DNA from: Bacillota bacterium
GTDB lineage: Bacteria; Bacillota; UBA994; PWPR01
Assembly: GCA_028280325.1 (NCBI GenBank)
Contig: JANQLZ010000064.1
Location: 1 to 58,974, forward strand
Direction of reading: 5' to 3'
DNA length: 58,974 bases
Under the pieces are notes generated by a model that was given only the letters and a program-made list of their open reading frames with translations, had not been told where the DNA came from and ran no database searches. A program made the translations under genes and the position numbers. Shown here piece after piece: positions 7,313 to 52,754 of the stretch (positions within the stretch are counted from its first letter, which is position 1; the number at the start of each line of letters is the position of its first letter).

Positions 7313-7421
7313 GATTACCAACAATGTTTATCTTTTAGTTCATGGCTAATATAGTCTGAACTAAAACATAAAAATTATTCGCAATTCCTACAAAATGCCG
7401 ATAGCATTCTGTGCTTATTCA

Positions 7422-7568
7422 CTCGTTGAGCTTTAGCACTGCACAGCTTTGGCAGAACCAGCTACATTAAGTAAAGCCTTGAATTCGGCAGTACCTGTTA
7501 ACCCATTGGCATCTCTCGATGTTTCCGAGTAGTAGCATATATCTGTACAGGAACCTCACCTAACGAGG
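7422..7568 (-). promoter_or_regulatory. M-box (ykoK leader) magnesium riboswitch
   Basis: On the minus strand the P1 stem is CTCGTT (5') with AACGAG (3'). Between them are conserved M-box words in order: GTTAGGTGAGG, a GTTCCTGTACAG segment, CTCGGAAACATCGAGAG, GCCAATGGGT and AACAGG. This matches the ykoK-leader aptamer, which binds Mg2+ and favours termination when magnesium is plentiful. It controls the 31-codon ORF and corA downstream. Confidence 0.88.
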
Positions 7569-7661
7569 TATTTTGTTATCATTATTATATCACAAAACCG
7601 TCAGATTATAATACCAAAAGTCTGGCAATTGACTTACAAGAAAGTCTTGAACCGTTGGGAT

Positions 7662-45072: not shown

Positions 45073-45084
45073 CATTAAATAATT

Positions 45085-45178
45085 ATTAATCCCTCCGCTA
45101 GCATTACCTAGATCAGGTTATGGGTCAAAGAATCAAGTTCTTTTTCTCAGCCAGCATTAACCAGCTCCCCAGTTTTGA
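45085..45178 (-). promoter_or_regulatory. TPP riboswitch (THI element)
   Basis: Read on the minus strand it contains the conserved words in order: ACTGGGGAGCTGGT, GGCTGAGAA, GACCC, AACCTGATCTAGGTAATGC and AGCGGAGGGA. It binds thiamin pyrophosphate and controls thiW by premature termination. Confidence 0.95.
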
Positions 45179-45225
45179 TTTATACCAGTTAAGTCTAGCA
45201 TATAACTGGCTGGCAATCAACAGCC

Positions 45226-49548: not shown

Positions 49549-51723
49549 TCACCCCTCCTGACTTTGCGGCGGCTGCAGGATTAACTGAGCCAGCTTAATG
49601 TCGTTATAGGTGTAGGCAGCTGGCAGCAGCTCTTTCAACTGCTTTAAGGATTGAGGATGGTGCTGCTGGGTAACAGTGCTGATATGATCCAGCTTTTGCT
49701 GGCTGAGATACCTGGTTAAATCTATTGAATAGCCTCTTTCCAGGCATTTATGAAAATGACTGATTATAGTTGAAATGGTCAGTTCTCGAGCCTGAGCAAT
49801 TTCTTTCAGGCTTTTGCCCTGTAGATACTGCTGATAGGTAAGTTGATAACGATCAGTTTTAACCTGATCAGAAGAGTCTTTTGCAGTATCTGTTGGAGCA
49901 GGAGCTGTCAGGTTATTTGTAGCGCAAAACTGCACGATCAGATCTAGAAACTGCTGGCCATAGCTCTCATATTTTTTTTCTCCAATTCCCTTTATCTGAA
50001 GCATTTCTTCCTTGGTAGCAGGTAAATAATAGGCCATGGCCTGTAAAGCACTATTATGAAAGATTATGTAATTTGGTATATTCTTAGCTGCCCCAATTGT
50101 TGACCTCAATGCAGCCAGTTCAGTAAACAGCTCTTGATTATACGCCAGGTTTGCAGCTGACTTCAATTGCTTCTTCTCACTTTTGGGAGGAATATTTAGT
50201 CTGGCCTGTTTCAGGTAGATGGCCTGCTTACCTTTTAATATTGGCTTGGCAGACTCCAGCAGTTTAAGCACCGGATAAGAGTCTGCGGTCATGTAAATAT
50301 AGCCTTCAGCAATTAAGGTCATAATCAGCTCCCGCACTTCACCAACAGTACTGTCTGTCATCAGGGCATAGGTAGAGATTTGATCCAGCCCCTGTTGAAG
50401 GATACGTTTCTCTTTTGAACCACGCAGAATATTTATTATCATCCTAACGCCAAATCTTTGCCCAGACTTGTAAATGCAGGAGAGTATCTTTTGAGCTTTT
50501 ACAGTAACATCAATTAACTCGGACTGGTCTAAACAATTGCCGCAATTATTGCATTTTTCAACTCCCGCTTCACCCTCAAAATACTCAATAATTACTTTTC
50601 GCAGGCAGTCATTGGTATGGCAGTAATTAACCAAGTGCTGTAAATTGTTGTATTGCAGCTGCTCTCGGACTTCATCACTTCCACTGCTGCTGATGATCAG
50701 TTTTTGTTTAACAATGTCTGACGGGGAATAGAGTAACAGGCATTCGCTGCTATTACCGTCTCTGCCGGCCCGCCCGGCTTCCTGATAATAGGCTTCCATG
50801 TTTTTCGGCATATTGTAATGCACTACAAATCTGACGTCAGGCTTATCTATGCCCATACCAAAGGCATTAGTGGCGACAATAATCTGGGTTTTATCGAACA
50901 TAAAGTTTTCCTGGGCCCGTTTGCGCACCTCGGCATCCATAGCCCCATGATAGCCTTCTACTCTGAACCCCTGCTCCTGCAGTTTTTGGGTCAGTGACTC
51001 TACTGTTTTCCGGGTAGAGCAATAGATTATGCCAGACTCATGCTGATAGTTGTCTTTCAGGTACTGAAGGATGTATTTAAACTTGTCCTGTGGTTTAATA
51101 ACCCGATAGAACAAATTGGGGCGATCAAATCCGGTAGATATTTCTAAAGGCTGGTTAAGGTGCAATAAGAATTTTATATCTTTGATAATGTGTTTTGTTG
51201 CTGTTGCCGTAAAAGCTGCTACCACTGGCCTTTTTGATAAATTTTCGATAAACAAAGGTATTTGAGCATAACTTGGTCTAAAATCATGCCCCCACTGACT
51301 TATGCAATGGGCTTCGTCAACGGCCACAAAAGGTATGGTTATCCGTTGAGTAAGGTTTAAAAAACCATTAGTATTTAATCGTTCAGGTGCCACATATACC
51401 AGCTTGTATTTGCCGGCAGCAATTTCTCGCGTTCTCTGATAAATGACATCATTGGGCACAGTACTATTGATATATGTAGCAGCGATTCCCATTTCCCTCA
51501 GGCTGTCTACCTGATCCTTCATTAAAGAGATTAACGGAGAAACTACTATCGTCACCCCTGGAAGCAATAGTGCCGGTAATTGATAACAAAGTGACTTTCC
51601 GCCACCGGTAGGCATTATACCCAGGCAATCCCGGCCGGTTAAGATGCTGTCAACCAGATACTCCTGTCCCTCAAGGAATTTATCGAAGCCAAAGTATTTC
51701 TTTAAGAAATTGTATTTGCTCAT
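49549..51723 (-). CDS. recQ: RecQ family ATP-dependent DNA helicase
   Basis: 724 residues. The helicase core has 'MPTGGGKS', 'VDEAHCISQWGHDFR' and 'YYQEAGRAGRDG'. The RQC zinc site is 'CNNCGNC' with further cysteines at 'CLRKV', and an HRDC domain ('FHNSALQAMAYYLPATKEEMLQIKGIGEKK') follows. A further C-terminal winged-helix-like part ('SLKEIAQARELTISTIISHFHKCLERG') is the helicase-associated HTH seen in Bacillus-type RecQ. It unwinds DNA forks and joint molecules in recombination repair. It is first in the operon with sbcD and sbcC. Confidence 0.97.
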   Translation of the reverse strand: MSKYNFLKKYFGFDKFLEGQEYLVDSILTGRDCLGIMPTGGGKSLCYQLPALLLPGVTIVVSPLISLMKDQVDSLREMGIAATYINSTVPNDVIYQRTREIAAGKYKLVYVAPERLNTNGFLNLTQRITIPFVAVDEAHCISQWGHDFRPSYAQIPLFIENLSKRPVVAAFTATATKHIIKDIKFLLHLNQPLEISTGFDRPNLFYRVIKPQDKFKYILQYLKDNYQHESGIIYCSTRKTVESLTQKLQEQGFRVEGYHGAMDAEVRKRAQENFMFDKTQIIVATNAFGMGIDKPDVRFVVHYNMPKNMEAYYQEAGRAGRDGNSSECLLLYSPSDIVKQKLIISSSGSDEVREQLQYNNLQHLVNYCHTNDCLRKVIIEYFEGEAGVEKCNNCGNCLDQSELIDVTVKAQKILSCIYKSGQRFGVRMIINILRGSKEKRILQQGLDQISTYALMTDSTVGEVRELIMTLIAEGYIYMTADSYPVLKLLESAKPILKGKQAIYLKQARLNIPPKSEKKQLKSAANLAYNQELFTELAALRSTIGAAKNIPNYIIFHNSALQAMAYYLPATKEEMLQIKGIGEKKYESYGQQFLDLIVQFCATNNLTAPAPTDTAKDSSDQVKTDRYQLTYQQYLQGKSLKEIAQARELTISTIISHFHKCLERGYSIDLTRYLSQQKLDHISTVTQQHHPQSLKQLKELLPAAYTYNDIKLAQLILQPPQSQEG

Positions 51724-51901: not shown

Positions 51902-51999
51902 GGGGGGTGGGTTTACTGCGTAAACGGGGTGGGCTTGCCTTTGGCAAGCGGGGTGGAATTGCTATGCAATTGGTTTGGGCTTGCTTTTGGCAAGCGTGG
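51902..51999 (+). repeat. Hairpin array 1: GGGGTGGG-spaced mini-hairpins
   Basis: Four stem-loops occur in a row: GTTTAC-TGC-GTAAAC (51911-51925), CTTGCC-TTT-GGCAAG (51934-51948), AATTGC-TAT-GCAATT (51957-51971) and CTTGCT-TTT-GGCAAG (51980-51994, one G-T pair). They are separated by 8-base spacers close to GGGGTGGG. Stem sequences differ, yet each remains self-complementary; centre-to-centre period is about 23 bases. Confidence 0.85.
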
Positions 52000-52110
52000 T
52001 GCAGTTGGTTTTTTAAAGATAGTTGGGCGATTGTTTTTTCCTTATGTACAGCTGCTATCGCCAAGGTATTATACATACAGGGAGAGCCTATGTTCTTTAG
52101 CTAAGGCTAA

Positions 52111-52190
52111 ATGAAGTGTTGTTATCACAACATGAAGTATTGCTTCGCAATATGAAGTGCCTGTGGCATGAAGTGTTACTTCGTAACATT
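52111..52190 (+). repeat. Hairpin array 2: ATGAAGT-spaced mini-hairpins
   Basis: ATGAAGT occurs four times (52111, 52132, 52152, 52168). Each copy is followed by a short stem-loop: GTTGT-TATC-ACAAC (52118-52131), ATTGC-TTC-GCAAT (52139-52151), GCC-TGT-GGC (52159-52167) and GTTAC-TTC-GTAAC (52175-52187). Stems change, pairing is kept, and the spacer is invariant. Confidence 0.85.
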
Positions 52191-52339
52191 TTTTCAAATA
52201 GAAAAAACATTGTATCTGCAACAAAAAAAACCGTCCCCAATGCTTCAGATCATTGCAAATTAAACTTATTTTTAGCGTTTTTCTCGGTAGCCAGCTAGCA
52301 AACTCAATATCCCAAAGCAGCCAAATACCCTAGGAAAAA

Positions 52340-52440
52340 CAATGGTTCAGCAATCGTTCAAGCTATTGTGCAACTATTGTTAAGCTTGCAAGAACCAACT
52401 GCCAAACTATTGCCCTACAATCGCCCAACTATTGCCAACC
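52340..52440 (-). repeat. Inverse copy of the G/T-rich degenerate repeat
   Basis: Read on the minus strand it contains GGTTGGCAATAGTTGGGCG, AGTTTGGCAGTTGG and GAACGATTGCTGAAC, words also found at 5871-6010 on the plus strand. It follows the hairpin arrays in the same island. Confidence 0.5.
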
Positions 52441-52553
52441 GGCTTGCTTGACAGCAAGCCATTGGTAAACAAGCCTGCACTTTTATTTCTTTTTTTCATA
52501 CTATAGTACCGAGGGTTGTCTCAATATCCTGAGAGAGGAGATTGAATATTTCT

Positions 52554-52754
52554 ATGCAAAAATATTGCCCAATGATGAAGCATTACATGACAGAACAGCA
52601 AAAAATGATGAAAAAGTGCAAAGATATGATGGCGGTGGCACCCACAAAATGTGCTAAAGACATGCTTATGGGTCAATACCGTGATATGAGCATGCATTAC
52701 AGAAATAATAAAACAATGTACGAAATGTATTGTACTAAAAAAGGTAAACTTTAG
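52554..52754 (+). CDS. Met/Cys-rich small protein, ferritin-like paralogue without ligands
   Basis: 66 residues from the ATG at 52554 (GAGAGGAG 13 bases upstream; a TTG at 52542 is too close to the site). It has 14 methionines and 4 cysteines (5, 22, 33, 60). It aligns without gaps to the next gene, sharing C5, C33, C60 and the MHYRNNK segment (47-53). The two acidic positions that could bind metal in that paralogue are Gln15 and Met45 here, leaving only His48. Two helices are likely. The family is not recognised with certainty. A thiol- or metal-related role is inferred from composition. Confidence 0.65.
   Translation: MQKYCPMMKHYMTEQQKMMKKCKDMMAVAPTKCAKDMLMGQYRDMSMHYRNNKTMYEMYCTKKGKL

Follow-up and report, generated by a model that had tools for sequence, protein, structure and literature searches.

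Both hairpin arrays found beside recQ in this contig are, in our assessment, fairly probably REP/BOX-type repeats: small, non-coding elements dispersed through intergenic DNA, in which swappable mini-hairpin cassettes are carried on a short constant spacer. The second of them (array 2) is best explained as a one-armed member of an extended Gut-1 family. The window below is the whole stretch of DNA analysed (58,974 nt).

The arrays share one gap, between recQ (49549-51723, minus strand; RQC, HRDC and helicase domains in Pfam) and a Met/Cys-rich ORF of 66 aa (52554-52754, plus strand) that had no Pfam match. A second small Met/Cys-rich ORF lies next to the latter, from 52774. Four mini-hairpins, all perfectly paired, were located at 51911-51995 (array 1) and four more at 52110-52189 (array 2), where the ATGAAGT spacers start at 52111, 52132, 52152 and 52168, with the hairpins between and after them. 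The gap contains the following features.

51902..52012, plus strand: array 1, a family-1 element with a G-rich spacer and the order A-B-C-B (at least 40 dispersed copies; alignment A2).
51911..51925, plus strand: hairpin A, GTTTAC-TGC-GTAAAC (DNA fold, chain scan).
51933..51949, plus strand: hairpin B as an extra unit, GCTTGCC-TTT-GGCAAGC (DNA fold; missing from canonical A-C-B copies).
51957..51971, plus strand: hairpin C, AATTGC-TAT-GCAATT (stem nearly invariant and loop variable in 26 copies).
51979..51995, plus strand: hairpin B, GCTTGC-TTTTG-GCAAGC (DNA fold, chain scan).
52003..52038, plus strand: family-1 tail (GCAGTTGG..., repeats of the 11-nt type), common to other family-1 copies.
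52096..52111, plus strand: additional hairpin 5' of array 2, TTTAGC-TAAG-GCTAAA (TTTAGCTAAGGCTAAA), the first hairpin in the Gut-1 model alignment.
52110..52189, plus strand: array 2, an 80-nt family-2 element with ATGAAGT spacers and four hairpins (about ten near-full copies; Gut-1 relative).
52118..52131, plus strand: array-2 hairpin 1, GTTGT-TATC-ACAAC (copy alignment, DNA fold).
52139..52151, plus strand: array-2 hairpin 2, ATTGC-TTC-GCAAT (copy alignment, DNA fold).
52159..52167, plus strand: array-2 hairpin 3, GCC-TGT-GGC (copy alignment, DNA fold).
52175..52187, plus strand: array-2 hairpin 4, GTTAC-TTC-GTAAC (copy alignment, DNA fold).
52338..52461, minus strand: inverted family-1 tail and B-type hairpin (GGCTTGCTGTCAAGCAAGCC on the minus strand; inverted repeats I1 and I9; likeness to family-1 tails judged by eye).

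The presence of two four-hairpin arrays, claimed in a sequence-only reading of this DNA, was confirmed by coordinates, DNA folding and shuffles. A scan of all 59 kb of the window for chains of three or more hairpins (stem length 5 bp or more) found arrays 1 and 2 and no others; in shuffled windows (n = 40) the mean number of such chains was 0.33, and no chain of four arose. Folding of both strands of both arrays as single-stranded DNA returned exactly the hairpins listed above, with z-scores of -5.0 and -6.2 for the two strands of array 1 and -3.2 and -4.4 for those of array 2 (200 dinucleotide shuffles). The same reading had asked whether the stems are any better than shuffled controls, and the arrays lie far beyond dinucleotide shuffles. 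With RNA parameters, the plus strand of array 2 preferred other pairings over the string of hairpins.

At least 40 copies of the array-1 family are scattered through this genome; their flanks are unrelated and their ends sharp. A canonical copy consists of three hairpins in the order A-C-B, and the copy in the window carries an additional B. In an alignment of 26 copies, 96% of cells are paired; one pair of hairpin A shows an A-U to G-C compensation in six of the 26, and one pair of hairpin B a C-G to U-A compensation in eight. Cells changed on both sides numbered 15 against 4.8 in shuffles, a value reached in none of 500. The claim of changing but compensated stems on a constant spacer is therefore upheld for the stems of array 1, with two compensated pairs, while the constancy of its spacer is only rough (GGGGTGGG, GGGGTGG, GGTTTGG). 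As far as can be judged from the sequence, the segment at 52338-52461 (minus strand) is probably the second, inverted arm of the array-1 element, with array 2 lying between the arms. Many array-1 copies, those at L060 and L074 for example, continue into runs of degenerate 11-nt repeats (TTGGCARTWGK / TGAACGATTGC type), which are found at 52338-52440 in the window.

Array 2 represents an 80-nt repeat with about ten near-full and several partial copies at unrelated sites, likewise with sharp ends. Its four stems are fixed by position among the ten near-full copies and the loops vary; since no compensatory change was detected in these stems, the description of array 2 as having changing stems was wrong within this genome. 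Arrays here are mostly one-armed. Another shared repeat (CCGTCCCCAATG...TTTTTAGCGTTTTTCTCG) lies 3' of array 2 in at least two copies (window 52218-52300 and downstream of L027), which makes the island a mosaic of several dispersed families. The genome G001, from the same genus, has arrays of its own with different stems.

The Gut-1 RNA (RF01706) was derived from environmental sequences, found only in the human gut and considered a likely ncRNA (Weinberg et al. 2010, PMC2864571). It is filed as an sRNA in Rfam, and our literature search on ATGAAGT arrays and Gut-1 gave nothing useful beyond that founding paper. The anatomy of Gut-1 is that of array 2, with three mini-hairpins, constant unpaired UGAAAU spacers and U-N-C loops closed by C-G. 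Array 2 aligned to the full length of the model (1-77; 32.9 bits, E 2e-4; non-standard pairs at 2 positions), having three consecutive constant-spacer mini-hairpins over all of it. It differs in its spacer (TGAAGT instead of TGAAAT) and falls below the gathering score of 50, which is reached by a copy in the same genome (G000:C154:192-262, 50.8). Gut-1 matches were obtained in all nine genomes examined, above the cutoff in six including this one, and the Gut-1-type repeat also occurs in a small class of the window's phylum. Unlike the human-gut-only ncRNA originally described, it is here a multi-copy dispersed repeat, two-armed in Clostridia. Array 1 had no match to the model at E up to 10, so its kinship is one of architecture and loop type only.

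To search for relatives, 85,000 public genomes were scanned with the pattern ATGAAGT-N(8-16)-ATGAAGT-N(8-16)-ATGAAGT, the content between spacers being unconstrained. There were at least 149 triple-spacer matches. Among the matches listed, the paired ones were arrays of Clostridia (uncultured gut Clostridia, Oscillospiraceae, Ruminococcaceae), except for one from Photorhabdus, a simple tandem repeat (TAATGAAGTTA). Unpaired tandem repeats were matched by the same scan and serve as an internal control. Array-bearing genomes hold from about a dozen to more than 100 spacer pairs; the reversed-pattern control of this count is void because ATGAAGTA reversed itself contains the pattern. The stems between the Clostridia spacers are very different, and all four outer pairs are Watson-Crick in 84 of 122 distinct inserts, whereas fully paired inserts averaged 11.6 and never exceeded 21 when 3' arms were exchanged within genomes (1000 swaps). 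The sequence-only reading was right that ATGAAGT-type arrays occur in other Clostridia, as was the claim that pairing is kept despite sequence change, to which both the compensated pairs of array 1 and the Clostridia stems bear witness. Among 399 genomes of the window's phylum, the hairpin-bearing spacer pattern was restricted to the window's genus, and Gut-1 exceeded the cutoff in three of 300, which indicates a patchy distribution. In this genome there are also dyads of a third family, spaced by GTGATAT/ATATCAC and placed directly behind tRNA genes and terminators (L470 = G000:C154, L471 = C108, L474 = C155); the same spacer family was found in three gut Clostridia (L476-L478). At L478 (G402), the spacer shifts from GATAT through GTGAAGT to ATGAAGT along a single array.

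In Clostridia, 29 of 30 elements are dyads (median length 211 nt; complete dyads roughly 150-370 nt), and in all 29 the ATGAAGT-spaced hairpins come first and the ACTTCAT-spaced hairpins second, so that the left spacers are complementary to the right ones. One dyad was folded: its spacers paired and its mini-hairpins branched off at four-way junctions (z -7.9 for DNA and -7.8 for RNA). A complete dyad is therefore predicted to form a stack of four-way junctions, each flanked on both sides by a mini-hairpin. Neighbouring genes, defined by frames conserved in tblastn, were mostly co-directional, with one divergent pair, and several dyads lie between a stop codon and the RBS of the next gene; context counts by longest ORF were set aside, since antisense ORFs make them misleading in GC-rich DNA. 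The centre of one dyad (L192 4416-4659, G400) holds a REP-like palindrome of the GTAGGGGC...GCCCCTAC type, missing from the orthologous G399 element, apparently a repeat inserted in another repeat.

These elements could also be structured ncRNAs or cis-acting mRNA elements, as was proposed for Gut-1, which would be transcribed and folded to serve as a stabiliser, processing site or regulator. We regard this as unlikely, though several points speak for it: strong covariation in array 1 and in the Clostridia stems, the status of Gut-1 as an sRNA in Rfam (PMC2864571), the sites between co-directional genes right before an RBS, and a dyad fold that is significant for RNA too. However, the elements occur in both orientations relative to genes and as near-identical copies at many unrelated loci, and copies in this genome are one-armed, with the plus strand of array 2 avoiding the hairpin string as RNA. 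The loops also speak on this point. On the ACTTCAT strand, GNA was found in 36 of 58 triloops and GNNA in 39 of 61 tetraloops, with C-G closing pairs in 124 of 135, and the same tendency was seen in this genome, array 1 included. Closed by G-C pairs, loops of these two types give DNA mini-hairpins of extraordinary stability (PMC4686876). Since GNRA accounts for only 16 of the 39 GNNA loops, and mismatches of the G-T kind (12) are about equal to A-C (15) and show no excess, a reading at the DNA level is mildly favoured over one at the RNA level.

Comparison of flanking genes revealed the same elements at the same places in genomes G399 and G400, some sites being common to G401 or G403. At S5a, two units were lost exactly between ACTTCAT repeats; at S1, S3, S6 and S7, whole hairpins were exchanged for other well-paired hairpins; and hairpin h1 of S2 had its stem lengthened on both arms. 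Other orthologous hairpins showed changes in the loop only, and several had one-sided breaks. Loss and swap of units, both of which the sequence-only reading had suggested looking for between strains, thus occur at orthologous G399/G400 sites. Because swaps and two-sided changes stand beside one-sided breaks, hairpin pairing is kept strongly but not absolutely. No clean empty site was seen; the G399 site of the second L423 element holds a decayed right arm and other palindromes.

Pairing might instead be kept by mutation, with replication template switching inside hairpins rewriting one arm from the other; that such switching can give rise to hairpins and preserve them has been published as a general idea (PMC8794818). 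The lengthening of both arms in S2 h1 agrees with this, but a stem of 4-6 bp offers the process little length, several changes on one side stayed unrepaired, and the G..A loop ends are conserved, though template switching would invert loops. Replacement hairpins usually belong to types that also occur at other places in the genome, an indication of exchange. We consider template switching distinctly unlikely as the main cause; exchange of whole hairpins as cassettes probably contributes to pairing.

Hairpin transposition, the other copying mechanism suggested earlier, would make the arrays single-stranded DNA transposable elements moved by a Y1/HUH transposase of the REPIN/RAYT or IS200/IS605 type. 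Such enzymes bind hairpins with short ultrastable loops, the copies are dispersed, and this genome has four Y1_Tnp genes. Nevertheless, an array flanked a Y1 transposase gene at none of 22 Y1_Tnp loci in nine genomes, and Y1_Tnp was not found in G399 (the densest in arrays), G402 or G404, which are array-bearing MAGs and possibly incomplete. The conserved ends read from the copy alignments of the two families (AATGAAGT...GTAACAT and TGGGTTTAC...GCAGTTGG) have no GTAG or CGTC tag. Altogether, this reading is quite improbable. The ORFs between neighbouring array copies in this genome were, by eye, ordinary or unnamed, none being transposase-like. Carriage by phages was rejected, as the readable ones among 91 spacer matches in viral contigs had no hairpin array.

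It is known that SbcCD cuts hairpins, and a link to the neighbouring recQ-sbcCD had been raised. Although the arrays adjoin recQ, both such a locus-specific origin and chance or low-complexity palindromes are extremely improbable in view of the shuffle results, and are refuted by dispersal: the same arrays lie at at least 50 other places, beside ordinary genes where inspected, and the neighbourhood is most likely a coincidence.

Among known systems, the REP/BIME/REPIN sequences with their RAYT (PMC3733652, PMC3116915) are likewise short palindromes with many intergenic copies, often in head-to-head pairs; here, in contrast, there are several hairpins per arm, neither a GTAG nor a CGTC tag, and no array-flanked RAYT gene. 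BOX repeats are modular. Together with RUP and SPRITE of pneumococcus, they are described (PMC3049150) as dispersed, structured, intergenic and slowly moving, as are the present elements, whereas constant spacers, interchangeable hairpins and complementary arm spacers do not appear in the part of that description available for BOX; the comparison is one of descriptions, not of sequences. By this analogy, the behaviour of the elements seems closest to that of BOX/RUP-type interspersed repeats. The hairpin-forming repeats of sponge mitochondria (PMC2800124) are alike in recurrent invasion and divergent sequence, but belong to organelle genomes, and the portion of their description consulted mentions no constant spacer. 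A MITE-type transposon would have terminal inverted repeats and a target-site duplication; the termini here carry ATGAAGT/ACTTCAT, and flanks inspected by eye showed no obvious duplication. On the layout of the repeats, CRISPR was rejected: there, unique spacers and cas genes go with direct repeats of about 21-48 nt, while here the constant part measures 7 nt and what varies between the constant parts is self-complementary.

For the dispersed repeats that we favour, the following course may be suggested. An enzyme supplied in trans would once have spread the elements, which would then have come to rest where they do no harm, in the gaps that follow terminators and tRNA genes or separate a stop codon from the next RBS. 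Pairing would then be kept by selection on a single-stranded fold, likelier of DNA than of RNA given the cGNAg/cGNNAg loops. Exchange of whole hairpins between copies may help to keep it, a third route beside the selection and the palindrome-making copying considered in the sequence-only reading. Against dispersed repeats count the lack of a mobilising enzyme among the loci examined and of a clean empty site, the missing Gut-1 match of array 1, the absence of compensatory change in array 2 here and the one-sided breaks in several orthologous hairpins. It is possible, if rather speculative, that constant-spacer hairpin arrays (TGAAAT, TGAAGT, TGATAT and perhaps GGGGTGG) form a general class of DNA repeats, with cassettes swapped between copies and arms joined through complementary spacers into a four-way-junction stack acting as single-stranded DNA; the Gut-1 "RNA" would then be a DNA element.

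With the present findings, what was an orphan RNA family, "gut-only" at that, can be counted as a genomic element in many copies, at whose orthologous sites strain comparison can directly test selection, exchange and templated copying as causes of hairpin pairing. The results also carry a warning: dispersed repeats can give rise to strong covariation, which by itself does not prove an RNA gene. Elsewhere in the window, an M-box magnesium riboswitch (7411-7574) and a TPP riboswitch (45073-45181) were found, both on the minus strand.
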